DNA from: Actinomycetota bacterium
Lineage (GTDB): Bacteria > Actinomycetota > Actinomycetes > Nanopelagicales > Nanopelagicaceae
DNA length: 41,428 nt
Direction of reading: 5' to 3'
Assembly (NCBI GenBank): GCA_005800815.1
Contig: SYEK01000024.1
Span: forward strand, 1-41,428
Notes under the pieces: generated by a model
The model's database searches: none
Seen by the model: only the letters and a program-made list of their open reading frames with translations
What the model was told of the DNA's origin: nothing
Program-made: the position numbers and the translations under genes
Part shown: positions 18,963-23,053 of the stretch, piece by piece
How positions within the stretch are numbered: position 1 is the stretch's first letter
Layout of the letters: each line of letters begins with the position of its first letter

Positions 18963-19477
18963 CGTTCTAACTCCTGCACTAGACCATCTATGGCGCGCTC
19001 AATCATACCTAATGTCACTTCGTAGGCCTCGACCGATTGATTATAGGGATCAGGAACCTCCAACTCGGAAAATCTCTCAGATGCTGGATCGATTTTTGAG
19101 AGTTCAGGGTCGAAACTGCGCAGATAAAAGACTTTTGCACGCGACTCTTCATCCTTTGCTAATTTGATAACGTTATCAAAGTTGCTTGAATCCATCACCA
19201 GGATCAGATCCCTCTCAAAAAAATCACTCGAGTTGAACTGTCGTGCTGCGTGGATGTGCTTATAGCCAGCCTTCTCCCAGACCTTGCGTGATGTTGGATG
19301 AGCGTCTTGGCCCACATGCCAGGCCCCTGTGCCAGCACTATCTACGATTATCTTCGGTGAACTCCAGGCCGCGGTGCGGTGTGAGAGCACGGCTGCGGCC
19401 ATGGGAGATCTACAGATATTGCCCATACAGACCATCATTATTCGAAACTCAGGGGCGGATTTTGAGAACTTGATCAA
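18959..19477 (-). CDS. Low-molecular-weight protein-tyrosine phosphatase
   Basis: Cysteine phosphatase of the LMW-PTP/ArsC fold, with 172 residues. The P-loop is CMGNICRS (Cys17 to Arg23, CX5R) and the general-acid loop is VPDPYNQS with DPY. Start: TTG at 19477 overlaps the TPR gene stop (TTGA). The next ATGs (19438, 19435) would remove the first beta strand before the P-loop, so TTG is favoured. Bacterial members act on tyrosine kinases of capsule synthesis or as secreted effectors; no kinase is nearby, so the substrate is unknown. Translational coupling to the TPR protein suggests a shared regulatory role. Confidence 0.88.
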   Translation of the reverse strand: MIKFSKSAPEFRIMMVCMGNICRSPMAAAVLSHRTAAWSSPKIIVDSAGTGAWHVGQDAHPTSRKVWEKAGYKHIHAARQFNSSDFFERDLILVMDSSNFDNVIKLAKDEESRAKVFYLRSFDPELSKIDPASERFSELEVPDPYNQSVEAYEVTLGMIERAIDGLVQELER

Positions 19478-20412
19478 GCCTGAGGCTCGTCTTCTAGGCT
19501 CTCTTGTACTGATTTCAATCGGCGCTCAATCTCATTGGCTTCATCGATACGCCCATGCAAAGCCAAGATCTTTGCAATTCGGGATTCGACGTCGATGATG
19601 AACTCAAAGTCCTTGGGTTCATCCTCACTTACCACGGATAAGACTTGCTCGAGAGTTGCAAGTCCTTCATCGAATTTTTCGAGCAGGATCTGGGCCTTGC
19701 CTACTTCAAATAGCGCAAAGGTCTCGCGCCGATGATCATGACCCGTCTCAAAGACGTCAACGGCTTTGCGTGCAGTCTCAAGTGCTAACTGGCCCTCATC
19801 GAGTTCGATAAGACATGATGCTATCTTTTGATCACATCGGGCGACATGGATGATCTCTTTGTTGCGTTTGAATAATATTCGGGCCTCTTTGAAGGAGTCA
19901 ATCGCCTTTGCGTAGTTCTTGAGCTCTCGCTCTGCGCAGCCGATCAAATGCAGATCATTGGCAGCACCAATCTCATTTCCATCCACCAGATGCTCTTGAG
20001 CACACTCACCCATCGTCGCAACGACTTTGGCATATTGCTTGGATGAGTACCACCACTCGGCAAGTGTGCATGCAAGTTCGAGAGCGACCGGAGATTTGTT
20101 CTCACGTAAAATCTCAACAGCTTTGCTCATGGCAGATGCCGCTTCATCCATACGCTTCAACTGATTGAGGTTGTAACCAATCGCTGAATACGCCTGAGCT
20201 AGACCCTCACTCGGTGCACTAGCACCAAGGGTCGAGTAGATATCCCGCGCAGTTTCGGCGAGGGCTAACGCCTCGTCATACTGTCCACGTGCATAGATTC
20301 TTGCGCTGAGTTCGTAATATGTGCTGGCACGCTCTTCGCCATCGACTTCAGGGATTCGATCCCAGAGCATCTCTTCGCTGATGAGTTCTTCCAAGCCGTC
20401 ATCCTCGCTCAT
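19474..20412 (-). CDS. TPR-repeat protein
   Basis: A soluble, acidic 312-residue protein built from tetratricopeptide helices. Repeats include YELSARIYARGQYDEALALAETARDIY, AYSAIGYNLNQLKRMDEAASAMSKAVEIL and AKAIDSFKEARILFK, with spacing close to 40 residues. There is no signal peptide or membrane segment. It is likely a cytoplasmic protein-protein interaction scaffold, with no recognisable enzymatic domain. The gene overlaps the phosphatase gene downstream and is divergent from the cbi transporter. TATAAG lies 8 bases upstream of the ATG (20421-20426, minus strand), suggesting a nearly leaderless transcript. Confidence 0.8.
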   Translation of the reverse strand: MSEDDGLEELISEEMLWDRIPEVDGEERASTYYELSARIYARGQYDEALALAETARDIYSTLGASAPSEGLAQAYSAIGYNLNQLKRMDEAASAMSKAVEILRENKSPVALELACTLAEWWYSSKQYAKVVATMGECAQEHLVDGNEIGAANDLHLIGCAERELKNYAKAIDSFKEARILFKRNKEIIHVARCDQKIASCLIELDEGQLALETARKAVDVFETGHDHRRETFALFEVGKAQILLEKFDEGLATLEQVLSVVSEDEPKDFEFIIDVESRIAKILALHGRIDEANEIERRLKSVQESLEDEPQA

Positions 20413-20512
20413 ACAAGAAACTTATACGCCTTGGCCTCGGAGAGAGCAGGGAATTTGGTCTGCGCCACCGGCTATTTGGCCATTTTGAGCCTAAGATGCC
20501 TTCAAGATGCAG

Positions 20513-20535
20513 ATGCGAATCGTTTGCATTAAAAT
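20513..20535 (+). promoter_or_regulatory. Candidate metal-responsive operator and -10 box of cbiMNQO
   Basis: ATGCGAATCGTTTGCAT (20513-20529) is an interrupted palindrome: 7-base arms with one G:T mismatch around a 3-base centre. It directly abuts TAAAAT (20530-20535), which lies 6 bases before the cbiM ATG. It resembles the nickel-responsive Nur box of Streptomyces (tTGCaa-N5-ttGCAA) with few mismatches. A bound repressor would cover the spacer of this promoter. Whether the regulator is Nur, another Fur-family protein or something else is inference. Confidence 0.55.
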
Positions 20536-20541
20536 AGGGCC

Positions 20542-21219
20542 ATGCATATTCCTGACGGCTTTATTGATCTTCAAACCTCAGCAGTCTTTGCTGGGTTAGC
20601 TGCCGCTGGGATTGCCACCGCGCTCAAGGGTGCTAGAACACAACTGGATGAAAAGATCGCGCCGCTTGCTGGCTTAACTGCCGTATTCATTTTTGCTGTA
20701 CAGATGCTCAACTTTCCAGTTGTTGCAGGAACAAGTGGTCACTTATTGGGTGGAGCGCTCGCCGCAGTTTTAGTTGGTCCATGGGCTGCAACTTTGGCAT
20801 TAACCGTTGTTTTGTTAATGCAAGGCTTGTTGTTTGCCGATGGTGGTCTAACCGCAATTGGTCTCAATATTTTCAACATGGGGGTACTTGGAGTCTGGGC
20901 GGGATATGGAATCTTCTTGCTTCTTCGCAAACTCTTGCCTAAGAATAAATCTTCGATTTCATTAGCTGCAGCCCTTGGCGGATTGCTTTCAGTTCCGGCT
21001 GCAGCTGTTGGTTTCACAATTCAATATGCGATGGGCGCAACAGCAACTTTTTCTACATCTGCAGTTCTTAGCGCCATGGTTGGAACACATGTTCTAATTG
21101 GAATCGGTGAAGCATTAATAACAGGTTTGACAGTCAGCGCAGTTTTAGCAAGTCGCAGCGACTTGGTATATGGATGGAAAAATAATAATCAGAAGCTGGA
21201 GCTCCGAAGTGCTGACTAA
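20542..21219 (+). CDS. cbiM: CbiM/NikM, substrate-binding subunit of a cobalt/nickel ECF transporter
   Basis: Integral membrane S-component that binds Co2+ or Ni2+. The 225 residues begin MHIPDGFI, the conserved N-terminus whose free amine and His2 ligate the metal, and contain further metal-site signatures (GTSGHLLGG, LLFADGGLTAIGLNIFNMG). Six or so transmembrane helices are visible. The gene is first in cbiM-cbiN-cbiQ-cbiO. Codon and base usage are clearly more AT-rich than in flanking genes. No cobalamin biosynthesis gene is in the window, so cobalt versus nickel is undecided. Confidence 0.95.
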   Translation: MHIPDGFIDLQTSAVFAGLAAAGIATALKGARTQLDEKIAPLAGLTAVFIFAVQMLNFPVVAGTSGHLLGGALAAVLVGPWAATLALTVVLLMQGLLFADGGLTAIGLNIFNMGVLGVWAGYGIFLLLRKLLPKNKSSISLAAALGGLLSVPAAAVGFTIQYAMGATATFSTSAVLSAMVGTHVLIGIGEALITGLTVSAVLASRSDLVYGWKNNNQKLELRSAD

Positions 21220-21517
21220 TCGCAGGTTTTACATCATAGGATTTGTAGTTTCTCTTTTTTTTGCAGGAGTTGTATCTTTTTACGCATCTTCTGCCCCGGA
21301 TGGTTTAGAAAAAGTTGCTCAAGATATTGGCTTTATTGACACTGCAAGAGATCATACAAACGCGGATAAGGCTTTGGCTGATTATGGAGTTAAAGGAATC
21401 GACAATGAACGGGCATCTGTTGGTGTGGCAGGAATAATTGGCGTGATAGGCACCGCTGTAGTTGCCGGAATTAGTTTCAAACTCATTGCTCGTAAATCAA
21501 AAAAGGATCACAATTAA
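21209..21517 (+). CDS. cbiN: CbiN-like PDGLE-domain subunit
   Basis: Small auxiliary membrane subunit working with CbiM in metal uptake. The 102 residues have two membrane segments (FYIIGFVVSLFFAGVVSFYA and GIIGVIGTAVVAGISFKLIA) flanking an external loop with the family hallmark SSAPDGLEKVAQDIGF. The chosen GTG at 21209 overlaps cbiM by 11 bases and has GGAG seven bases upstream; an upstream in-frame codon at 21170 lies deep in cbiM and is unlikely. It ends just before or inside the start region of cbiQ. Confidence 0.9.
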   Translation: MLTNRRFYIIGFVVSLFFAGVVSFYASSAPDGLEKVAQDIGFIDTARDHTNADKALADYGVKGIDNERASVGVAGIIGVIGTAVVAGISFKLIARKSKKDHN

Positions 21518-22310
21518 GGTCGAGCAAGAGAACCATCACCACGGACATGATGTAGGTGAAAGGCTCTACCTTCATCGCCATTCATTGGTCCACGCTTTAC
21601 CTTCGCACCTAAAGATCATTGCTGCGCTGGCCTTTATTTTGCTTGTTGTTTCAACCCCAGTTACTCAATGGCCTGCTTTTGTTGCATATTTCATCTGGTT
21701 GCTAACAGTTGTTGCAATTACAAAGATCCCCTTTTCTCTTCTCTTTAAGCGCTCATTAATCGAAATTCCTTTTATTTTTTTCGCAATTCTGATGCCTTTT
21801 TTTGGCTCTGGAGAGAAGATTCAAGTTGGACCTTTTGATCTTTATCGTGAAGGGTTAATTGCAGGTTCTGGAATTGTTGTTAAAGGAACTTTGGGTGTGA
21901 TGACGGCAATTATTTTGTCTACGTCGACAACTGCTCGTGAAATCCTTCGAGGACTTGAGCGGCTAAAGCTTCCGGTTTTAATGGTTCAAATTGCCTCATT
22001 TATGTTGCGCTACGTAAATGTTGTAAATGATGAGATGGAGAGAATGAAGGTTGCACGTGAGTCTCGAGGCTTTGAAGCAACTGGGGTCAAGCACTGGAAA
22101 GTTTTAGCAACAGCAGCTGGCGCACTATTTATTCGCTCTTACGAACGAGGAGAAAGAGTTCATCTTTCTATGCTTTCTCGTGGATATGTTGGTGTACTTC
22201 CACATGAGGAACAACCGCATGTTCGATTTTCAGTTTGGATAACGGCAGTGCTGTATCCACTAGTAGCTTTAATAATTTTTGTTACACAACTAATAATTGG
22301 AAAAATGTAA
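21486..22310 (+). CDS. cbiQ: CbiQ, transmembrane T-component of the cobalt/nickel ECF transporter
   Basis: Couples ATP hydrolysis by CbiO to the S-component. About 270 residues, with four to five helices and the T-component coupling motifs: Ala-Arg-Gly type ARESRGFEA and SYERGERVHLSMLSRGY. The N-terminus is His-rich (HHHGHDVGERLYLHRHS). The start is unclear: no ATG or GTG lies in the right place. TTG at 21486 is used here. ATT at 21513 has a much better ribosome site (AAAGGA five bases upstream) and would sit exactly on the cbiN stop (ATTAA). The C-terminal boundary is firm; the cbiO ATG shares a base with this stop. Confidence 0.9.
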   Translation: MLVNQKRITIKVEQENHHHGHDVGERLYLHRHSLVHALPSHLKIIAALAFILLVVSTPVTQWPAFVAYFIWLLTVVAITKIPFSLLFKRSLIEIPFIFFAILMPFFGSGEKIQVGPFDLYREGLIAGSGIVVKGTLGVMTAIILSTSTTAREILRGLERLKLPVLMVQIASFMLRYVNVVNDEMERMKVARESRGFEATGVKHWKVLATAAGALFIRSYERGERVHLSMLSRGYVGVLPHEEQPHVRFSVWITAVLYPLVALIIFVTQLIIGKM

Positions 22311-23053
22311 TGGGTACGCCAAGTTTAGAAATCAAAGAGCTTGCCTTTGCATACCCTGATGGCAATCAAGCGCTTTATGGCGTAAACCTCTCGGTGCAAA
22401 AGGGAGAACGTGTCGCTCTCCTTGGACCAAATGGTGCTGGTAAGTCAACACTTGTCATGCACATAAATGGTATCCATCCAACATCACACGGAACTATTCA
22501 TGTTTCCGGACAATTAGTTGACTCCAAAAATAAAGAATTGATAAAGGAGATACGTTCAAAGGTGGGAATTGTTTTCCAGGATCCCGATGATCAGTTGTTT
22601 ATGCCAACAGTTGGTGAAGATATTGCGTTTGGCCCCTACAACATGGGAAAGCGTGGTTCAGAACTGGATGCAATTGTTGATGGTGCATTGAACTTAGTAG
22701 GAATGAGCGAGTTCAAGAATCGTCCGCCACATCACCTCTCCTTTGGGCAACGCCGACGTGTGGCGGTTGCGACTGTTTTAGCAATGAAGCCTGAAATCCT
22801 TGTTTTAGATGAACCATCATCAAACCTTGACCCTGCAAGTCGCCGTGAATTAGCTGACATTTTGCGCTCTCTAGACATCACGATGGTGATGGTTACCCAC
22901 GATCTTCCTTATGCATACGAATTGTGTGCCAGATCAGTAATTTTGAAGGATGGAATCATAGTTGCAGATGGTTCTACCCATGAAATTCTGACGAATTCAG
23001 CCTTGTTATCGGCTAATCGACTAGAACTTCCTGTTGGTTTTTCAATCCAATAA
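22310..23053 (+). CDS. cbiO: CbiO, ATPase of the cobalt/nickel ECF transporter
   Basis: A 247-residue ABC ATPase with Walker A GPNGAGKST (39-47), Q-loop VFQDPDDQLF, signature LSFGQRRRVA (Phe in place of the usual second Gly/Ser position), Walker B ILVLDEPSSNLDP and switch His in VTHDLPYAYELC. The Q-loop DPDDQLF form is characteristic of ECF ATPases. A frame extends 25 codons upstream but the ATG at 22310 overlaps the cbiQ stop (TAATG), so coupling decides the start. It is the last gene of the transporter cassette; no terminator hairpin with a U-run was seen after it. Confidence 0.95.
   Translation: MGTPSLEIKELAFAYPDGNQALYGVNLSVQKGERVALLGPNGAGKSTLVMHINGIHPTSHGTIHVSGQLVDSKNKELIKEIRSKVGIVFQDPDDQLFMPTVGEDIAFGPYNMGKRGSELDAIVDGALNLVGMSEFKNRPPHHLSFGQRRRVAVATVLAMKPEILVLDEPSSNLDPASRRELADILRSLDITMVMVTHDLPYAYELCARSVILKDGIIVADGSTHEILTNSALLSANRLELPVGFSIQ

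Follow-up and report, generated by a model that had tools for sequence, protein, structure and literature searches.

Control of nickel uptake by Nur, a regulator of the Fur family, is already known in Streptomyces. The regulon of S. coelicolor Nur (structure 3EYY) includes sodF and nikABCDE, the published Nur box is tTGCaa-N5-ttGCAA (PMC3919588), and the S. coelicolor nur gene adjoins ygfZ (PMC4531530). In other bacteria the nickel repressor NikR controls the unrelated importers NikABCDE, NikMNQO and NiCoT, and both the Cbi/NikMNQO and the NiCoT families contain cobalt transporters as well (PMC2667541). The locus described here lies in a 41,428-nucleotide contig (SYEK01000024.1; hereafter the window) of a freshwater actinomycete of the Nanopelagicaceae, and what it adds to the Streptomyces picture is a predicted leaderless promoter and a set of swapped importers.

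The palindrome before cbiM (ATGCGAATCGTTTGCAT, read directly from the window; Table 1) is very probably a Nur operator, predicted to repress a leaderless nickel-importer promoter. The first-pass annotation had described a palindrome, then TAAAAT, then six bases and the ATG of cbiM; this layout is exact, the six bases being AGGGCC at 20536-20541. Its arms pair at 6 of 8 positions (arm positions 5 and 8 are mismatched), and 9 of the 10 specified bases of TGCAA-N5-TTGCA match, which agrees with the few mismatches to the Nur consensus that had been claimed. When further copies were sought in the genome, the cbiM site was the sole full match to TGCRAAYNRTTYGCA; the other sites with one mismatch (C12, C14) are inside genes and look like chance occurrences. 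The annotation had also held that no B12 riboswitch was involved: an Rfam search of the window returned neither a B12 riboswitch nor any other RNA family, and riboswitch control was ruled out on that result.

Leaderless promoters are recognized by a -10 element that ends 6-7 nt before the start codon and by the lack of a Shine-Dalgarno sequence; TAAAAT has this placement and no Shine-Dalgarno sequence accompanies it, which fits a leaderless message whose transcription would start at the ATG. The start codon is fixed by Met1, His2 and the central His of CbiM, which we take to be the metal ligands of this family as in TtNikM2, and with it the short spacing from box to ATG. The conserved wTGCAG (-35 to -30) may be a weak -35 element, a third Nur half-site, or both. 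With enough nickel, Ni-Nur would occupy the 17 bp that separate the -10 from the -35 region and block RNA polymerase; with nickel scarce, Nur would leave, cbiM/nikM-PDGLE-cbiQ-cbiO would be transcribed, and the imported nickel would supply Ni-superoxide dismutase. We infer from the sequence comparisons below that Nur binds, that nickel is its effector, that it represses, and that transcription starts at the ATG.

Table 1. Features of the cbiM promoter and importer operon (window coordinates)
Feature	Coordinates	Strand	Basis and remarks
Divergent TPR-protein gene, left edge of exchangeable importer slot	19474..20412	-	Pfam and locus comparison
Conserved wTGCAG	20507..20512	+	17 bp from -10; conserved columns -34 to -31
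Nur-type operator, predicted	20513..20529	.	7-1-7 palindrome, TGCRA-N5-TTGCA core at 20514-20528
-10 element TAAAAT	20530..20535	+	-12 to -7 from ATG; TAnnnT in 45/45 relatives of the 13-bp class
cbiM/nikM, substrate-binding membrane component (PF01891)	20542..21219	+	Pfam; Met1-His2 and His67 present
PDGLE-domain component, NikN-like, in CbiN's place; start codon uncertain	21170..21517	+	Pfam
cbiQ/nikQ, ECF transmembrane component; start codon uncertain	21462..22310	+	Pfam
cbiO/nikO, ATPase; true start probably near 22310	22235..23053	+	Pfam (ABC ATPase)

Relatives keep the palindrome in front of cbiM. A contig scan gave 80 CbiM relatives, of which 79 had a readable promoter (one contig starts inside the gene), making 80 promoters with that of the window. 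At least 9/10 of TGCAA-N5-TTGCA is matched within 80 bp of the start in 71 of these 80, against about 0.4% of background windows, so the cbiM palindrome is not a chance occurrence; the relaxed box TGCRA-N5-TYGCA is fully matched in 1 of 5293 background 80-nt windows. The box stands exactly 13 bp before the start codon in 45 relatives, and their fixed TAnnnT (Table 1), best conserved at A -11 (96%) and T -7 (94%), argues against a transcription start far upstream. Among other lineages, some have the box at a distance of 19 bp, and in some it follows the -10 and a Shine-Dalgarno sequence is present; in Streptomyces cbiM relatives it is at 20-21 bp. The symmetry of the box is kept while its position shifts, as expected of a repressor site.

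CbiM, the PDGLE/NikN component, CbiQ and CbiO are encoded together as in NikMNQO operons, and a nickel importer of this type is the best reading of the operon, since a Ni-superoxide dismutase is present, the B12 gene cbiC is absent, and NicO, of the NiCoT type, replaces cbiM under the same box. These observations favor the first-pass suggestion that the transporter was more likely for nickel. The alternative, import of cobalt, or of both metals to the same extent, under a cobalt-responsive regulator, is unlikely. It draws on the cobalt transporters in both importer families and on the automatic annotation of the operon as a cobalt system, but cbiC was found in 0 of 121 family genomes, complete acI genomes are without cobalamin synthesis (PMC5301498), and Ni-superoxide dismutase is nearly universal in the family (110/121). 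The dismutase of this genome has the hook HCDLPCGVY and is accompanied by a divergent S26-type peptidase. Nickel demand is thus evident, and cobalt demand for corrin synthesis is not. The closest solved relatives of CbiM are 4m5b and 4m58 (E about 1e-30), which we take to be the nickel component NikM2, ahead of the CbiM of 5x3x (E 3e-16).

The exchange with NicO can be followed across the family. Among the 121 genomes, CbiM is found in 37 and NicO in 78 (77 full genes and one remnant), and the two are mutually exclusive (Fisher p=1.4e-22), the sole overlap being the remnant in G027. At that locus (L261, G027:C66, 2934-3400), which resembles an importer replacement caught midway, cbiM and the broken NicO gene directly before it each have a Nur box of their own. 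A Nur-type box lies 10-56 bp before the start in all 44 NicO loci examined (43 genomes), and one NicO subfamily has the leaderless module of cbiM, TGCAGATGCAAATnATTTGCA-wTAACCT-N6-ATG. The chromosomal slot next to the TPR gene is where either importer is found in Planktophila. Parsimony places six importer changes on a tree of three linked genes (DUF4395, Nur, YgfZ) that covers 15 Planktophila genomes with three outgroups; one node that enters this count is almost without support. A stretch of 2361 bp that contains the box and reaches the start codon is 92.6% identical between P. versatilis, which has cbi, and the closely related G104, which has nicO; the two sequences become alike again immediately behind the transporter genes. 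Three further pairs diverge already upstream of the box, so that the box, too, was exchanged. We consider it likely that the Nur operator is a fixed socket at one slot, where two unrelated and mutually exclusive importers, NikMNQO and NicO, have been repeatedly swapped, sometimes as the coding region only and sometimes with the incoming box.

Neither CbiM nor NicO was found in G026, G015, G009, G051, G053, G075 and G089; the first of these is rated 100% complete, and another nickel importer may exist.

This genome encodes two Fur-family proteins. One, on another contig, is the Nur-type homolog that nickel- or cobalt-dependent repression by a Fur-family protein, as first proposed, would call for, and together with the box conserved at cbiM it supports that proposal. 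Its best PDB match is S. coelicolor Nur (3eyy, 2e-43; next match 6e-15), with 71 of 130 residues identical (55%), and its gene adjoins ygfZ; it is an orthologue of S. coelicolor Nur by sequence. His30, 67, 69, 85, 87 and 123 and the four Cys are conserved in it, and among 43 Nur sequences the His/Cys ligand positions are invariant or nearly so (H67, H69 and H123 invariant). We take the three Ni-site His of Nur to be His70, 72 and 126 and the four M-site His to be His33, 86, 88 and 90; in this numbering three of the four M-site His are kept and His86 is replaced by Leu. Of 39 distinct nur loci, 23 have a box 500-750 bp upstream of the gene and none has one downstream; in the loci inspected the upstream box heads a DUF4395-nur-ygfZ operon, and the copy in this genome is degenerate (9/10). 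This suggests that nur is autoregulated in many relatives.

The other Fur-family gene, at the end of the znu operon, has its best matches among Zur structures. It is unlikely, slightly more so than the cobalt reading, that the operator belongs to Zur (zinc) or to a Fur-family protein other than Nur. Zur 7-1-7 boxes share the AAT-N-ATT core, and in several drafts that have cbiM and the box Zur was found and Nur was not. However, the Zur box of this genome, before znuA, is of the TGA...TCA type (TGAGAATAGTTATCA, L285 3649-3663, G000:C26), unlike the cbiM box with its TGC...GCA ends as published for Nur; Zur was rejected as the cbiM regulator on this difference. A perfect TGAAAATGATTTTCA stands at another Fur-family locus in P. 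versatilis, a Nur-type box also precedes the nur operon, and nur was found in every closed cbiM-bearing genome. The roughly 11 of 37 cbiM-bearing genomes in which nur is missing are all drafts, and most of their promoters that were read retain the box. Nearly all are also without ygfZ, so missing assembly blocks look like the simpler explanation; one of them has a contig that ends within ygfZ. Eleven is more than the approximately 4 estimated from stated completeness, and nur may really have been lost in some lineages. Drafts with cbiM in which neither nur nor ygfZ was found are G048, G049, G087, G088, G106, G111, G118 and G124.

Finally, that the palindrome is a mere promoter element or a chance inverted repeat is hardly credible: it does lie inside the promoter spacer, and adjoining -35 and -10 bases are conserved too, but its symmetry survives the shifts in position noted above, and boxes of this type stand before NicO genes, which are unrelated, and before the nur operon too. 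Nur-like boxes were also seen about 200-245 bp upstream of a gene for a secreted rhodanese-like protein (L113 at 2091 in G001; L122 at 1983 in G006); these may mark a further Nur target or be chance.

The reading of the palindrome as a Nur operator assigns a metal, a regulator and a mechanism, all predicted, to an operon that would otherwise carry a cobalt-transport annotation, in dominant freshwater bacteria unable to synthesize B12. On this reading the nickel regulon would be very small, with the importer and, probably, nur as its members. Closely related genomes in which little more than the importer differs behind one operator provide a natural experiment on transporter selection, where affinity, ATP cost and phage entry are possible selecting factors between metal transporters. 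In a literature search whose coverage lay mostly outside subscription journals, neither Nur nor an exchange of importers was found described for this freshwater group.

Compared with TtNikM2 (4m58, 4m5b), CbiM here has full-length homology, the N-terminal Met-His and His67, and a PDGLE (NikN-like) partner, its metal specificity being predicted. With the S. coelicolor Nur regulon the locus shares an orthologous regulator (identity, ygfZ neighbor, His ligands), the box, and nickel import as the target class. Streptomyces nikMNOQ is presumably also under Nur. The differences from the S. coelicolor regulon are that importers of the NikMNQO type or NicO are the predicted targets, that the cbiM promoter appears to be leaderless with the box in its spacer, that the nur operon itself is boxed in many relatives, and that sodN of this genome was found to have no Nur box beside it. 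As in the NikR systems (PMC2667541), one nickel repressor would serve several unrelated importers; here, however, the predicted regulator belongs to the Fur family, and the importers replace each other at one chromosomal slot.
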